Source: Acididesulfobacillus acetoxydans (lineage in GTDB: Bacteria; Bacillota; Desulfitobacteriia; Desulfitobacteriales; Desulfitobacteriaceae). Taken from it: DNA of 64,000 nt. This document shows positions 3,421 to 10,644 of this stretch, in pieces. Below the pieces are notes generated by a model. It was not told the DNA's origin, searched no databases, and saw only the letters and a program-made list of their open reading frames with translations. The stretch spans positions 1,984,001-2,048,000 of the forward strand of contig NZ_LR746496.1 in NCBI RefSeq assembly GCF_902729405.1, in the 5' to 3' direction. Each line of letters opens with the position of its first letter. Within the stretch, counting starts at the first letter, position 1. The position numbers and the translations under genes were made by a program.

Positions 3421-3714
3421 ATGGACGGGCAGACCGGAAAATCCCAACGTGCCATCATTTCCGTTTTCGGGCGTGACAGGATTGGCATCATCGCCTGGGT
3501 GAGCGGGCGGTTACAGGAGTATTCTATCAATATTTTGGACATCAACCAAACCATCTTGCAGGGGTTTTTCACCATGATTATGATCGTAGATCTTAGTCCC
3601 GCATCCATTGAGGTGGCGGAGTTGGCCAAGGTTTTGGAGCAGGAAGGCCAAGAAAGTGGCCTTCAGGTCAATGTGCAGCACGAAGATATCTTTAATTTTA
3701 TGCACAGGATTTAG
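3421..3714 (+). CDS. ACT-domain protein (UPF0237 family)
   Basis: A 97-residue protein that is essentially one ACT domain. The start AIISVFGRDRIGIIAWVSGRL is the usual beta-alpha opening with a glycine-rich ligand turn; FFTMIMIVDLS is the third strand. ACT domains bind small ligands, often amino acids, and control partner enzymes. The gene lies 15 bases before a DUF711 gene, and this pair is conserved together across Firmicutes and archaea, so the two proteins probably act together. SD AGAGGAGG precedes ATG 3421. Confidence 0.88.
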   Translation: MDGQTGKSQRAIISVFGRDRIGIIAWVSGRLQEYSINILDINQTILQGFFTMIMIVDLSPASIEVAELAKVLEQEGQESGLQVNVQHEDIFNFMHRI

Positions 3715-3729
3715 GAGGCAACTGAGGAA

Positions 3730-5097
3730 ATGAAGATAACTCTAGCGCCCCAAGAAATCTTACAGACGTTGGACATGATCCGGCAAGAGAACTTGGACAT
3801 CCGGACGATTACCCTGGGCATCAGTCTTCTGGACTGCCGGGGGGATGATATCGCCACCGTGGAACGCAAAGTCTACGACAAAGTTACGCATAAGGCCGCG
3901 AACCTGGTGCAGACCGGTGAACGCCTGGCGGCACGTTACGGGATTCCCATTGTCAACAAACGGGTGTCTGTGACTCCGGTCGCACTCATTGGTTCGGGAT
4001 TTAACCGGGATGGGATGGTCCGTTTGGCGAAAGCTCTGGATAGGGCAGCTGCAGCCGTAGGAGTGAATTTTCTGGGCGGATTTTCCGCTCTGGTCCAGAA
4101 AGGGTTCAGCCGGGGGGACGAAGCCCTGATCGAGGCGATTCCCGAGGCCTTGGCAGAGACCCTTTATGTCTGCTCGTCAGTCAACGTGGGTTCTACCAAG
4201 GCCGGAATCAATATGGATGCAGTGCTGAAAATGGGCGAGGCTGTCCTGGAAAGCGCCAGGCGGACAGCGGCTCAAGACGGCTTGGCCGCCGCCAAACTAG
4301 TGGTTTTCTGCAATGCGCCGGAAGACAATCCTTTTATGGCGGGGGCTTTCCATGGCGTGGGTGAGCCGGAATCTGTGATTAATGTCGGAGTCAGCGGGCC
4401 GGGTGTGGTGGCTTCCGTGGTTAAGGAGAACCCGGCGGCGGACTTTGGTGAACTTGCCAGTTTGATTAAACGCATGGCTTTTAAAATCACCCGGGTGGGC
4501 GAGCTAATCGGCCGGGCAGCTTCAGAGGAACTGGGTGCGCCGTTTGGTATTGTCGATTTATCTTTGGCTCCCACCCCTTCCATCGGGGACAGTGTCGCTG
4601 AGATTCTTGAGAACATGGGGTTGGAACGCTGCGGGGCCCATGGCACGACGGCTGCCTTAGCGCTTCTCAATGACGCGGTCAAAAAAGGGGGAGCGATGGC
4701 TTCTTCCCATGTTGGGGGTCTCAGCGGAGCCTTTATTCCGGTCTCCGAGGACGCGGGAATGGTCAAAGCCGTGGAAGCCGGCGCCCTGAGCCTGAGCAAG
4801 CTGGAAGCGATGACCTGTGTTTGCTCAGTCGGCTTGGACATGATCGCGATTCCCGGTGATGTTACCGCCGAAACCATAGCGGCTATCATAGCGGATGAAG
4901 CGGCCATCGGTATGATCAACAAAAAAACAACGGCGGTTCGCGTAATTCCGGCCATTGGCAAGCAAGCTGGGGACAGAGTCGAATTCGGCGGGCTTCTGGG
5001 GGGAGCTCCGGTCATTTCCGTCAATCCTTTCGCGGCCGACCGCTTTATCCGGCGGGGGGGAAGAATCCCGGCCCCGATCACCAGTCTGAGCAATTAG
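3730..5097 (+). CDS. DUF711 / UPF0210 family protein (PFL-like fold)
   Basis: A 455-residue member of DUF711 (UPF0210), a glycyl-radical-enzyme-like fold of unproven function. It is full length: it begins with the typical [10 protein letters not shown]-like opening and contains the conserved segments [40 protein letters not shown] and [12 protein letters not shown]. No glycyl-radical motif is evident. It follows the ACT-domain gene closely (SD GGAGGCAACTGAGG), and the pair is likely a two-gene operon in which the ACT protein senses a small molecule. Confidence 0.88.
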
Positions 5098-5200: not shown

Positions 5201-5322
5201 TTGAATTGGGAAGAAGAGGTTCGAATTGAGGAAGGAGGGTTTGAATTGAGAAAGGGAGGTTTGAATTGAGAAAGGGAGGTTTGAATTGAGAAAGAGAGGT
5301 TTGAATTGAGGGAAAAAGCGGA
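5201..5322. repeat. 20-bp tandem array (about six copies)
   Basis: Units of exactly 20 bp start at 5201, 5221, 5241, 5261, 5281 and 5301, with consensus TTGAATTGAGAAAGGGAGGT. The copies at 5241 and 5261 are identical. The + strand is purine-rich. It lies between DUF711 and the promoter of the large RNA. Confidence 0.9.
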
Positions 5323-5526
5323 ACGAAAAGTATAAGAAAGAACAGAGACGCGAAAAATGGAGATGGTTTTTGCGGAAAACTGCAATCTTTTAGAACATAT
5401 ATTCTTAGAAGATAGAGAAAGCGTGCAATTCTGTTTAAAAACGAGAGCGGATGACAGAGAAGGGAACAAAGACCACTAACTCAGCTCGTGATCTCTGAGA
5501 AAATCCGTGACAAGTTATTGACTGTT

Positions 5527-5555
5527 TTGCCACGGTGACCAAAATCGTGTACAAT
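5527..5555 (+). promoter_or_regulatory. Sigma-A-type promoter of the large structured RNA
   Basis: TTGCCA (5527-5532), 17 bases, TACAAT (5550-5555); transcription would start near 5562. No long open frame follows, so the transcript is probably the structured RNA. Confidence 0.65.
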
Positions 5556-5561
5556 ACGGAC

Positions 5562-6192
5562 ATAGTGATTTTTGCCCAATATCGTTTTTAAAGCTTTGGG
5601 TAACGGAGCGCTATTCTAGTGCACAAATTGACATTCGAAGGCGGGCCTAAGAATCCGCCGAGGGCATACCGATGAAGTTCCTGGTGGTGGCTTGCGACGC
5701 CCAGTCGAGGGTTGCTGCTGGGAGTTAAGGCCGAGGGGGATCCGCAACGGCATGCGGGCGCTACCCTTGTCCGTGGAGGCCTGAGTATGTGGTCTGCAAA
5801 GATTACGGCTCAGGGTATGAACCTGCATTAGGAAGGAACTTAGTGCAGCGTAGCCTGCCTTGAGGTGGAAAAGTTGGGAAGGCGTGTGGGGTGTGAACCG
5901 TGTTGGCCGACATGGTTCAGCCTGCCGGAAATTCTTTTCTGCAAAAGAGGCTAGTGTGTCAAGGCGTGTTAAGGAAACTTCTAGAGCGTTAATCGGCGGG
6001 GATTGAAGTGCGTCCTCAGTGGCGATCAAGTTCTGAGTGGTGGCGACACCTCAGGCTGGGGGAAAAGGGAAACCGCCTGTCGGGAAACCGCGGGAACCCA
6101 GTGGGAAAACCTACTTGACCTAAGACGCAATATTGACCTGCCGGCATCCTAAGGCCCAAAGAGGCACCTCCTGTGATGGGGGTGCTTTTTTT
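5562..6192 (+). ncRNA. ole: Large structured non-coding RNA, probable OLE RNA
   Basis: A region of about 630 bases between a good promoter and an intrinsic terminator has no plausible gene but dense secondary structure. Examples are CCCAG...CTGGG near 5700-5726, CCGCA-ACGGCA-TGCGG near 5745, CCTGAG...CTCAGG near 5780-5818, and CTGCATTAG-GAAGGAAC-TTAGTGCAG near 5822-5847. A nine-pair GAACCGTGT...ACATGGTTC stem lies near 5897-5920, and the 3' third is rich in GAAA-type motifs. Length, host type and overall look fit OLE RNA (about 610 nt, anaerobic or extremophilic Firmicutes), which forms a membrane ribonucleoprotein with Oap proteins. No oapA or isoprenoid genes flank it, unlike the classical locus. 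The ncRNA call is firmer than the OLE label. Confidence 0.6.
6164..6192 (+). terminator. Intrinsic terminator of the large RNA
   Basis: GCACCTCC (6164-6171) pairs with GGGGGTGC (6178-6185, one G-U pair) and is followed by seven T. Confidence 0.9.
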
Positions 6193-6293
6193 CGCGGCAG
6201 TCTCCCTTTTTCCGAGCTGGCTGAATTTAACAGCTAAGGAAACCGTATGGGAGCCAGCCAAAGCAGGCACATTATGTCAGGGGTGGAACTTCT

Positions 6294-7067
6294 ATGAAAA
6301 GATATGTTGTCTTGCTTGCCTTTGTCGCCGGTTTGCTGGGTGTTTCCTTTCTTGTGGGCCGGCCGCACTTGGGCGAAGCGGGAGAGGGAATGTCGGGCAG
6401 CCGGAAGATAACGACGCCAAGCTCTGTTCAGGACGTACTGGTTGAGGTACCGACGGAGAAGAAATCAGTGGCACTGACTTTTGATGACGGGCCGGATATA
6501 TCAACAGAGTCCCTGCTTGCTGTCCTGCGGAAATATCACGTCAAGGCCACTTTTTTCGTCGTAGGGGACAATTGCCGGCTCTATCCCGATGTTTTGAAGA
6601 GGATGGCCGCCGAGGGCCATGAGATAGAGAACCATACTTATACCCACCTGCGTTTTCGCGGCAAGACGCTGCAGCAGATCGCGACGGAAATCGACAAGAC
6701 GAACCGCGTCATTCAACAAATTACCGGAAGAGTACCGGAGTTTTTTCGACCGCCGGGGGGAACGATCAATGAGAAAATCCTGCAAGCAGCCCAAGAGGCG
6801 AACTTGCGCGTGGTGCTCTGGACTCCTCCCGAAGACAGCAAAGACTGGTGCAACCCCGGAGTGGGGAATATTATCCGCAATGTCGTCCGCCACATTAAGC
6901 GGGGTTCGATCATCCTGATGCACGACGGAGGAGGTCCCCGCCAACAGACCGTGCAGTCCCTGCCCACTATTATCGAAACACTCGAAAAAGAAGGGTACCG
7001 CTTCGTCACTGTCAAGGAACTGTTGAATTCTGAAGTGAAAACCCTCCAGCCTTTGCCGGGTCCTTGA
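6294..7067 (+). CDS. Polysaccharide deacetylase (NodB-type, secreted)
   Basis: A 257-residue carbohydrate esterase family 4 enzyme. Residues 1-25 are a signal peptide or anchor (RYVVLLAFVAGLLGVSFL). All NodB motifs are present: TFDDGPD (catalytic and metal Asp), NHTYTH (two metal His), RPPGG and LMHDGGG (catalytic His). It removes acetyl groups from peptidoglycan or another glycan outside the membrane; in spore-formers such enzymes often act on cortex or wall. It begins 100 bases after the terminator of the large RNA and so has its own promoter. Confidence 0.9.
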   Translation: MKRYVVLLAFVAGLLGVSFLVGRPHLGEAGEGMSGSRKITTPSSVQDVLVEVPTEKKSVALTFDDGPDISTESLLAVLRKYHVKATFFVVGDNCRLYPDVLKRMAAEGHEIENHTYTHLRFRGKTLQQIATEIDKTNRVIQQITGRVPEFFRPPGGTINEKILQAAQEANLRVVLWTPPEDSKDWCNPGVGNIIRNVVRHIKRGSIILMHDGGGPRQQTVQSLPTIIETLEKEGYRFVTVKELLNSEVKTLQPLPGP

Positions 7068-7089
7068 AGCAGCGCACAAGGACGAAAAT

Positions 7090-7207
7090 GAGCAAAAAAG
7101 AGAGAGAGCAAAAAGGAGAGAGCAAAAAGGAGAGAGCAAAAAGGAGAGAGCAAAAAGGAGAGAGCAAAAGGAGAGAGCAAAAGGAGAGAGCAAAAGGAGA
7201 GAGCAAA
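7090..7207. repeat. 13-16-bp purine tandem array (AGCAAAAAGGAGAG)
   Basis: About eight copies of AGCAAAA(A)GGAGAG, 13 or 14 bp each, just downstream of the deacetylase gene. The unit itself resembles a ribosome-binding site but starts no gene. Confidence 0.9.
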
Positions 7208-7233
7208 AAAAAGGCCGACCGCGAGGGTCGGCC
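7205..7233 (-). terminator. Hairpin with T-run on the minus strand
   Basis: GGCCGACC (7213-7220) pairs with GGTCGGCC (7226-7233). Eight A at 7205-7212 give a T-run only when read on the minus strand, yet no minus-strand gene ends here. It may block antisense transcription or be a relic. Confidence 0.45.
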
Positions 7234-7322: not shown

Positions 7323-7435
7323 AAAAATATTTTTGGGCACCCGCGTTCCTTGCCTGGCATATATTACCACAGGTTCCCGGGAGGAGTTCGGCTTCTTCCG
7401 ACGAATCTAAAATAAGATAAACAAAGGAATAAGGA

Positions 7436-7560
7436 GCTGAATCCGGGTTTTTTGCCCGGAACGGGGGATTTCCATTAGTGGGGTGAATCACACGCTGTGT
7501 GTAGGGCTTACACCTTAGTGCCCGAATCCGTCAACTAACCTCGTAAGCTGAGAAAGGTGG
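7436..7560 (+). promoter_or_regulatory. c-di-AMP riboswitch (ydaO/yuaA type)
   Basis: The leader contains the recognisable ydaO core in order. There is a TCCGGG...CCCGGA stem (7442-7460), then a GGGGGATTTC segment, GGGGTGAATCACACG, and GTGTAGGGCTTACACC. It closes with CGAATCCGTCAACTAACCT and CGTAAGCTGAGAAAGGTGG. This class binds c-di-AMP and usually shuts off wall hydrolases and potassium transporters, and the next gene is an NlpC/P60 hydrolase. Its 3' end runs into the SD (AAAGGTGG), so control could act on translation as well as on transcription. Confidence 0.9.
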
Positions 7561-7567
7561 ACATTGT

Positions 7568-8287
7568 ATGTTTGTTGTTGCCAAAGCGTGGCTGGGCGGA
7601 GTCGCTTTGTCAGGCGTGCTTTTGGCTGGAAGCATTCCGGCGGCGGCCGACTTCCAGCCCACTGTCGTTTCCGCACAAGGTACCGGAGCGAAGGTGATTC
7701 AAGTCTCGACCGGAAGCTATGCTGAAGTGATACACCGGGACTTAAAATGGACACCGAAGAATGACCCGGCGGAGATAGAACCCCCTGTTGCGGGGCCAGG
7801 CCCTGTGGCTGCTGCGCCGGCTGAACCTGCGTCAGGGCAGAAAAGCACTGCGCAAGCCAAACCGGTGCCCGTCCCCGCCCGGCGCCCAATTCAGGTGGCC
7901 CAAGCCACGGCTTCCCGTGGAGGGTCGAAGGCGACGGGACTGGTTGAACGGGCCCTCAGCCTGCGAGGGATTCCCTATGTTTTTGGCGGGACAAGCCGCA
8001 GCGGGTTTGATTGTTCCGGTTTCACCCAATATGTGTTCGCGACCGTCGGCATTTCGCTTCCGCGTTCTTCTTACGCTCAGTTTGGCGTAGGAAGTTCGGT
8101 GACGCGAGCAGACTTGCGGCCGGGCGATCTGGTTTTTTTCACGACTTATGCCCCGGGGCCCTCCCATGTCGGGATCTATATCGGCGGCGGGGACTTTGTT
8201 CAGGCTTCGGACAGCGGAGTGCGGATTACGCGCATGTCGGACAGTTATTACGCCCACAAGTTTGTGGGTGCGCGCCGGGTACGTTAA
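7568..8287 (+). CDS. Secreted NlpC/P60 cell-wall endopeptidase
   Basis: A 239-residue protein with an N-terminal signal peptide (about residues 1-27, ending AAADF), a Pro/Ala-rich linker (about 70-110) and a C-terminal NlpC/P60 domain (about 120-239). The catalytic Cys is in FDCSGFTQYVF, the His in SHVGIYIGGG, and the LRPGDLVFF strand is typical. It cleaves peptidoglycan stem peptides outside the cell. ATG 7568 follows AAAGGTGG by eight bases, directly after the c-di-AMP riboswitch, so wall turnover is tied to c-di-AMP. It is probably monocistronic. Confidence 0.92.
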   Translation: MFVVAKAWLGGVALSGVLLAGSIPAAADFQPTVVSAQGTGAKVIQVSTGSYAEVIHRDLKWTPKNDPAEIEPPVAGPGPVAAAPAEPASGQKSTAQAKPVPVPARRPIQVAQATASRGGSKATGLVERALSLRGIPYVFGGTSRSGFDCSGFTQYVFATVGISLPRSSYAQFGVGSSVTRADLRPGDLVFFTTYAPGPSHVGIYIGGGDFVQASDSGVRITRMSDSYYAHKFVGARRVR

Positions 8288-8616: not shown

Positions 8617-10419
8617 TTAGCCGGGGGGAGATTCAGCGGGAACTTCTGACTGAACCGCTGCCGCCTGTTGTTGACGGAAGAAGTCATAGACAGCCTGGGC
8701 GGTATTTTGGGGCAAGCCGGCGGCCAGAAGTTCCGGCAGGCCGGCGAGTCGGATGGCTTCAACGGACTGAAAGTGACGCAGGAGCAGCTGACGGCGTCTG
8801 GGCCCTATGCCGGGGATGCCGTCCAGGGCCGAAAGGATCATCTTTTTGGCTCTCTGCTGGCGATGAAAGGTAATGGCAAAGCGGTGGACTTCGTCCTGAA
8901 TTCGTTCGAGCAGGTGAAAGAGCGGAGAGTTGTGTGGCAGCGGCAGGAGGTCTCCCTCCATATTAAGCAGTCCGGCCGTGCGGTGACGGTCATCCTTGAC
9001 CAAGCCTGCAACCGGCAGGGTCAAGGCCAGCTTGTCTAAAGCTTGGCAGGCCGCCCGGATTTGTCCTTTCCCGCCGTCTACCAGGATGAGGTCGGGAAAA
9101 GGTGCGGCTTCGGCGAGGAGCCGGGCGTAACGGCGTTCGACAACCTGCCTCAGGGAGGCCGTGTCGTCGGAAGTTTCCATGGGCTGGATGCCGAATTTCC
9201 GGTAACCGGTCCGGTTAGGTTTGCCGTGCAGGAATTGAACCATACCTGCGACCGGGTTTGTTCCTGCGGTATTAGAGATGTCAAAGGCTTCAATGAGGGA
9301 TACGTCGGGAAGATTTAAAAGTTCGGCTAAGGTGGCCAAAGCCTGTTTGATTTCCTCGGCGCGTTTGGCTTCCAAGCTGACTTCATCGTGAATGGTGGTT
9401 TGGGCGTTGGTCGTTGCCAGTTCGACCAGGTCGCGTTTTTGGCCCCGCTTGGGAACACCGACGGGAAACAAACGGCCCAGAGCTTCTGTGTCGCAGGGCG
9501 GGAGGAGAATTTCCTGGGGCCAGACCGGGTGTTCGGAATAGAATTGGGCGACAAACGAGATGAAGGCATCCTCCGCTTCCGCGTAATAGGGAAAAACAAA
9601 GCTGTCCCGCGCCAGGAGTTTGCCCTGGCGGAGATAGAAAATCTGTACGCACATCAGATCGGCGCTTGTGGCGTAGCCAAGCACGTCGCGATCGGTGAAG
9701 TCGGTTAAAGTGATGTTTTGCTTTTCGGCCAGGGCCTTGAGGCTGTTGATAAGATCACGGTATTCCTGGGCCAGTTCAAATCGCAGAGAGTCCGAGGCGG
9801 AGAGCATCTTTTCTTCCAATAACTGAACAATTTTTTCCTGGCCGCCTTTGAGAAATTTTGTGACTTCCTTGCGCATCTCCTCATAGGATTGGGGCGGAAT
9901 GCTCTGGCAGCAGGGGCCCAGGCACTGCTCCAGATGGAAATACAGGCAGGGGCGGTGGGGAATCTGACGGCATTTCCGGAAAGGGAACAGCCGGTTTAAG
10001 AGCCTGGCGGCCTCGCGGGCTGCCGTCGCATTCGGATAAGGCCCGAAGTATTTGCCGTTCCCCGGTTTGATTTGGCGCGTGACCATAATGCGGGGATGGG
10101 TTTCTTCCGTGATGGTCAAGTAGGGATATGATTTGTCGTCCCTTAAGAGGACGTTAAACTTGGGATTATGCTTTTTAATCAGGTTGCATTCCAGGACCAA
10201 GGCCTCAACTTCCGAATCCGTCACCATGTACTCGAAGTCGGCAATGTTGCCGATCATTTTTTGGGTTTTGCCGTCGTGTGAGCCGGTAAAGTAGGAACGC
10301 ACCCGGTTTTTCAAGACTTTGGCTTTGCCTACGTAGATGATTTTGCCGGAACTGTCTTTCATCAAATAAACCCCGGGTTTTTCCGGCAGCAAACTGAGTT
10401 TTTGCCGCAACATCTCCAT
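8617..10419 (-). CDS. uvrC: UvrABC excision nuclease subunit C
   Basis: About 600 residues. An N-terminal GIY-YIG nuclease (KPGVYLMKDSSGKIIYVGKA) makes the 3' incision. It is followed by a UVR/UvrB-interaction region, an RNase-H-like endonuclease domain (LILVDGGKGQIRAA) for the 5' incision, and a helix-hairpin-helix tail (LDGIPGIGPRRRQLLLRHF). It works with UvrA and UvrB in nucleotide excision repair. I start at ATG 10419 (MEMLRQKL) because the family begins here; a longer frame to 10479 adds 20 residues unlike UvrC. Confidence 0.95.
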   Translation of the reverse strand: MEMLRQKLSLLPEKPGVYLMKDSSGKIIYVGKAKVLKNRVRSYFTGSHDGKTQKMIGNIADFEYMVTDSEVEALVLECNLIKKHNPKFNVLLRDDKSYPYLTITEETHPRIMVTRQIKPGNGKYFGPYPNATAAREAARLLNRLFPFRKCRQIPHRPCLYFHLEQCLGPCCQSIPPQSYEEMRKEVTKFLKGGQEKIVQLLEEKMLSASDSLRFELAQEYRDLINSLKALAEKQNITLTDFTDRDVLGYATSADLMCVQIFYLRQGKLLARDSFVFPYYAEAEDAFISFVAQFYSEHPVWPQEILLPPCDTEALGRLFPVGVPKRGQKRDLVELATTNAQTTIHDEVSLEAKRAEEIKQALATLAELLNLPDVSLIEAFDISNTAGTNPVAGMVQFLHGKPNRTGYRKFGIQPMETSDDTASLRQVVERRYARLLAEAAPFPDLILVDGGKGQIRAACQALDKLALTLPVAGLVKDDRHRTAGLLNMEGDLLPLPHNSPLFHLLERIQDEVHRFAITFHRQQRAKKMILSALDGIPGIGPRRRQLLLRHFQSVEAIRLAGLPELLAAGLPQNTAQAVYDFFRQQQAAAVQSEVPAESPPG

Positions 10420-10644
10420 ACTGATCACCCTATCAAAAAAAGTGCGGGCACGTTCCTTCGGGATGGCCCGCAGAAGCACGATTTTGGCGAAGATCCTGAC
10501 TGAAACGCCGCCTGGGGGAGTCCGCCCTACTTATTCTAGAGATTTTAGGGTTGAGAAGCAAGTGCTCCGGAATCATATCTGCTCGGGCGGGGACGTATAC
10601 TTTGTTTGAGGGGAGATCGAGGGCCGATGGGGGAGGGAGAAGCT

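Follow-up and report, generated by a model that had tools for sequence, protein, structure and literature searches.

The RNA encoded at positions 5527-6192 of the window (the whole 64,000-nt stretch of DNA analyzed here) is an ordinary member of the OLE family. Its gene, ole, appears to have moved away from oapA before the window's family (f1) and a sister family (f3) diverged. The RNA would still fold as a normal OLE and form the OLE particle in trans, without OapB; we give this reading a probability of about 0.85. Comparison of sequences supports the identity and covarying fold of the RNA, its relocation, the homology of the OapA and OapC found, the failure to find OapB, and the co-occurrence of ole and oapA. 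The interest of the locus lies in the clade-wide split of the two genes and in the OapB-free form.

To our knowledge, OLE is among the largest RNAs of bacteria that lack a known biochemical function. The first hint of its tie to OapA came from the adjacency of the two genes. In two families this adjacency is broken and the genes are nevertheless retained or lost jointly, which argues for a joint function and against linkage as the explanation. A clade with OLE, OapA, and OapC and no detectable OapB also offers material on the role of OapB and on dispensable dimer contacts. No description of the clade-wide split, the OapB-free setting, or the shared RNA changes was found in the literature covered, a provisional statement because older key papers on OLE and OapB lie outside it.

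Identity, structure, and predicted transcription of the RNA

The observation made at this site in the first-pass annotation was real, and its coordinates were right. Across the window, a search with the Rfam covariance models, which that annotation had proposed for OLE, ROOL, and GOLLD, produced two hits that reached the gathering score, OLE and a c-di-AMP riboswitch. The OLE model (RF01071, curated score cut-off 50 bits) was matched over its full length (model positions 1-616 of 616) by 580 nt with 391 bits and an E value of 2.3e-111 (cmscan), corresponding to an RNA of about 0.6 kb. A focused scan of 5400-6300 gave OLE again and nothing else credible; a match to Hrs1 antisense to OLE, with 19 bits, was below the cut-off and was dismissed. 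Neither ROOL nor GOLLD reached the gathering score anywhere in the window, and neither was matched at E values up to 1 in 5400-6300. The source genome (one contig, 4,520,225 bp) carries a single copy of ole at 1989587-1990166. The earlier statement that about 630 bases hold no credible gene was borne out, as the plus strand has no ORF of at least 50 aa from the promoter to the terminator. On the minus strand, an ORF of 137 aa at 5616-6029 was rejected as a mechanical one that runs antisense to the RNA, the covarying structure being on the plus strand. The features of the locus are collected in Table 1.

Table 1. Positions of ole, its structural elements, and its neighbors in the window. Helix numbers are our own assignment from published descriptions.
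Feature	Position	Strand	Remark
ACT-domain gene and DUF711 gene, upstream of ole	3421-5097	+	beside ole only in part of f1
Sigma-70-type promoter TTGCCA-17-TACAAT	5527-5555	+	start expected near 5562
OLE RNA (RF01071), full length	5587-6166	+	cmscan and covariation
Terminal helix CUUUGGG, 5' strand	5594-5600	+	pairs with CCCAAAG at 6155-6161; absent from Rfam structure
P2-type long-range helix (GCGC..UCUAG), 5' strand	5608-5619	+	pairs with CUAGAGCGU at 5981-5989
P4-type hairpin, A-rich loop	5640-5659	+	middle A replaced by G at 5651
GGCC palindrome, P9.3-type loop	5905-5908	+	sequence comparison
Missing small hairpin (model positions 424-435)	5986-5995	+	absent in f1/f3, present in f2
P13-type hairpin	6076-6093	+	loop GAAA at 6084-6087; GYRA in f2/f4
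Intrinsic terminator, 14-bp hairpin and T run	about 6158-6191	+	folding -22.2 kcal/mol, z -3.8
Polysaccharide deacetylase gene, downstream of ole	6294-7067	+	
c-di-AMP riboswitch (7425-7564) and NlpC/P60 hydrolase gene (7568-8287)	7425-8287	+	Rfam scan (riboswitch)
uvrC	8617-10479	-	conserved far flank of relocated ole locus in f1 and f3

Covariation was assessed on an alignment of 29 homologues with 161 pairs, comprising the Rfam structure and two long-range helices added in the analysis. Paired cells amounted to 89.1%, compared with 82.4% in shuffles and 37-47% with slid partners, a measure that favors the pairing structure since this was derived from the window's own sequence. Two-sided changes were found in 78 of the 161 pairs versus 46 in shuffles. 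Thermodynamic folding alone was only mildly unusual (z -2.15) and was not counted as evidence. Both added helices covaried: the terminal helix showed two-sided changes in six of seven pairs, and in the P2-type helix three of the four upper pairs were counted, all of which change on both sides and are 100% paired. The latter helix can pair in all of the sequences, and its UCUAG:CUAGA part is invariant across the homologues. Together, the 391-bit match and the covariation place the many stems noted in the first-pass annotation beyond chance.

That annotation had cautiously allowed for a different large RNA class. ROOL, GOLLD, a new class, or a decayed OLE copy might be suspected from this caution and from the score, which is lower in the window than in the outgroup families f2 and f4 (512-525 bits). 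However, the OLE model was matched end to end and no other class was, the 29 homologues exhibit strong covariation and invariant blocks, and the single copy means that the genome holds no better one elsewhere. This alternative is already refuted by the covariance-model match, and the probability left to it is negligible.

Several changes set the RNAs of f1 and f3 apart. The hairpin at model positions 424-435 is lost in both families and kept in f2 and f4, the P13-type loop is fixed as GAAA, and the middle A of the A-rich P4-type loop is replaced by G or U, being unchanged in f2 and f4. These three are derived states common to the OLE RNAs of f1 and f3. The covaried P2-type helix is a further one: CAG:CUG in f2 corresponds to CGY:RCG in nearly all f1/f3 sequences. 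A GAGG insertion was rejected as specific to the two families, since it also occurs in L104, L106, L109, and L113, all of which group outside that clade. In the cryo-EM structure of OLE, the GGCC palindrome of the P9.3 loop is a self-kissing dimer contact, and the A-rich P4 loop also takes part in the dimer (PMC12286853). The palindrome is kept in f1 and reads GGCA in most of f3; of the two putative dimer contacts, f1 retains the self-kissing loop and has one altered base in the A-rich loop.

The promoter and the intrinsic terminator described earlier were both confirmed. The promoter agrees with 10 of 12 consensus bases; when the 80 nt preceding the covariance-model hit were shuffled, just 1% of the shuffled sequences scored as well. 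Among 18 loci from f1 genomes, 17 have a promoter-like site, several of them individually weak, and 17 have a terminator. Two f2 loci have promoters and no terminator. The recurrence of both elements in f1 fits a separate ole transcript, and we infer that ole in this family is a transcription unit with its own promoter and terminator.

Protein partners encoded in the genome

The RNA had been called an orphan, which does not hold, as the same genome encodes OapA and OapC at other sites; the proposed search for the three partner genes located these two and failed to detect OapB. With a query taken from the classic ispA-DUF212-ole-oapA-dxs locus of an f2 genome, one OapA was found in the source genome at 3027842-3028444 (profile), intact with 203 aa and 1.04 Mb away from ole. 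It sits in the ancestral cluster xseA-ispA-DUF212-oapA-dxs-tlyA-nadK?-argR-recN, from which only ole is gone. No OLE remnant was found in the DUF212-oapA gap of this genome. The earlier suggestion of a probable, relocated OLE is thus upheld. The Pfam CNNM model (PF01595) had no match in the source genome, OapA being below its cut-off.

An OapC-type protein of 85 aa and L7Ae type is encoded between rpoC and rpsL, with 4lck and 3v7e (YbxF / ribosome-associated L7Ae-like protein) as its best PDB matches. Another L7Ae-type protein, beside nusA-infB (L067), was rejected as OapC because it is the YlxQ paralogue.

For OapB, the slot between map and infA was informative. It holds a KOW-type protein in f4 and in one f2 genome, and because one of these proteins gave a hit to PDB entry 7k9b, "OLE-associated protein B" (E 1.2e-9), the corresponding profile family was taken as OapB. 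The slot was empty in the source genome and in six other f1/f3 genomes read. The profile, which was built from five sequences and could miss a very divergent OapB or a replacement, had no match in any of the 71 f1/f3 genomes, compared with matches in 9 of 12 f2/f4 genomes (p 7e-10, ignoring kinship). According to the literature, about 60% of the species with OLE have OapB (PMC11332333), so that its presence is no defining trait.

Distribution of ole and oapA across the class

The survey covered 83 genomes of the class, 71 from f1 and f3 and 12 from f2 and f4. OLE was found in 44 and strong matches to OapA likewise in 44; 42 genomes have both, 37 neither, and 4 are discordant. OLE alone was seen in G015 (76% complete) and G041 (83% complete), OapA alone in G070 (86% complete) and G056 (95% complete). 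The co-occurrence has a Fisher p of 1e-18 over all genomes, ignoring kinship. Within genus g6, 11 genomes have both and 19 neither (Fisher p 2e-8, again ignoring kinship). Published work describes the two genes as almost completely mutually inclusive (PMC9723947, PMC11332333, PMC12265935) and as "almost always in tandem" (PMC9723947), an arrangement that is usual rather than defining. In one genome without OLE, only the last 38 residues of OapA were matched (G066:C174:8749-8862, E 2e-4), which may be what is left of a lost oapA or may reflect the edge of a contig.

The arrangement of the pair differs sharply between the families. In f2 and f4, ole lies directly upstream of oapA in all five genomes with both. 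In f1 and f3, the genes are adjacent in none of the 37 genomes with both; they lie on different contigs, some of these genomes being drafts, or are separated by about 60 kb to 1 Mb. In the f1/f3 loci read at length, oapA follows DUF212, apart from one locus without a DUF212 match. The relocated ole is flanked on one side by ahcY and/or GNAT (or their neighbors), and uvrC follows at some distance on the opposite side; ACT-DUF711 and the polysaccharide deacetylase gene are examples of inserts found in particular lineages. The neighbors reported earlier were right. An f2 genome has ahcY and GNAT without ole. A tree of seven proteins from the oapA cluster separated f1+f3 from f2+f4 with an ultrafast bootstrap of 100, and in the OLE RNA tree f1+f3 formed one clade (bootstrap 100). 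Because ole and oapA are adjacent in f2/f4 and never in f1/f3, the site of ole is shared, and both trees set f1+f3 apart, a single relocation in the common ancestor of f1 and f3 would be the simplest reading of these sequences. The move proposed in the first-pass annotation stands, but it is not peculiar to the source genome, being common to both families.

Alternatively, the f1+f3 lineage could have lost its own ole and gained a foreign OLE at the new site as a replacement. The RNA tree, in which the f1+f3 RNAs stand on a long stem branch away from f2 of the same order, points in this direction, but that tree is short, sparsely sampled, and without independent rooting. Moreover, no donor is visible, as no outside sequence falls within the f1+f3 clade (bootstrap 100), and oapA remained vertical in its cluster. 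We regard replacement as unlikely and retain the single old move.

Two OLE genes were present in one f1 draft genome, where the copy at L004 (G008:C349) is of ancestral type, groups with L106, and probably stems from a foreign contig. L106 itself (Peptococcaceae bacterium BRH_c4b, LADO01000017.1) groups outside f1+f3. No OapA was seen in the 8 kb examined near its OLE; it is possibly another unlinked OLE or has a divergent OapA.

A proposed particle and the surroundings of ole

In H. halodurans, OLE binds OapA at the membrane, a k-turn of the RNA is the site of OapC, and P13 is that of OapB. The particle helps the cells to cope with cold, alcohol, Mg2+, and poor carbon sources (PMC9723947, PMC11332333, PMC12265935). 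For the window OLE we infer transcription, binding, dimerization, membrane location, and stress function in the following way. In the f1+f3 ancestor, ole would have exchanged the DUF212-oapA slot for a new site with ahcY/GNAT on one side and uvrC on the other. The f1 gene would be transcribed separately from its own promoter to its own terminator. The RNA would fold as a normal OLE and dimerize; given the clade-wide split of the genes, it would meet OapA in trans at the membrane, and OapC, also supplied in trans, would bind at the k-turn. The product would be a stress-responsive particle as in H. halodurans, minus OapB. The conserved blocks, the intact OapA and OapC, and the joint retention or loss of ole and oapA are the reasons for expecting the same particle.

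With slightly better than even odds, the RNA of f1 and f3 may belong to a distinct and ancient OLE particle. Its gene would be freed from linkage to oapA and, in f1, transcribed on its own; the RNA would act in trans with OapA and OapC, in the absence of OapB, and would carry corresponding changes in the loop of the OapB site, at the P4-type dimer contact, and in the P2-type helix. If so, f1 and f3 would provide a natural experiment on the essential parts of the OLE RNP.

The window RNA shares with classic OLE (RF01071; H. halodurans, C. acetobutylicum, C. botulinum) the full-length fold, conserved blocks, long-range helices, its own promoter, and a genome encoding OapA and OapC. It differs in the distance from oapA, the undetected OapB, its own terminator, the missing hairpin 424-435, the GAAA P13-type loop, and the middle base of the A-rich P4-type loop. 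OLE variants 1 and 2 of the TANB77 and RF39 clades likewise combine lineage-wide OLE changes with the absence of OapB (PMC11332333). However, those variants belong to symbionts with reduced genomes, have lost or shortened P7-P9, and are largely without OapC, whereas the window form keeps the P7-P9 regions, has OapC and a moved ole, and comes from a 4.5-Mb genome. ROOL and GOLLD resemble it as large ornate bacterial RNAs forming homo-oligomers (PMC12286853), but neither family was matched in the window or the focused region.

The neighborhood allows for another function. In each of the five f1 loci scanned, ole is followed downstream by a c-di-AMP riboswitch (window 7425-7564; L008 2383-2519; L018 3446-3579; L026 1076-1209; L031 145-284), and in the window it is the leader of the NlpC/P60 hydrolase gene. 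A connection of OLE with c-di-AMP has also been suggested for other reasons (PMC11332333). The relocated OLE might have been repurposed for a role independent of OapA, such as the local control of its new neighbors, among them the riboswitch-controlled cell-wall hydrolase gene, and the hydrolase gene and riboswitch at five of five loci would fit such a role. However, ole and oapA are retained or lost jointly though unlinked, also inside g6 (11 both, 19 neither), the f3 neighbors are different (bactofilin, on the opposite strand), and ole has its own terminator in f1. Repurposing is consequently quite improbable, and the particle formed in trans remains our preferred reading. The unit of ole and the polysaccharide deacetylase gene is flanked by short tandem repeats at 5215-5310 and 7080-7210, of about GAATTGAGAAAGGGAGGTTT and GAGAGAGCAAAAAG.
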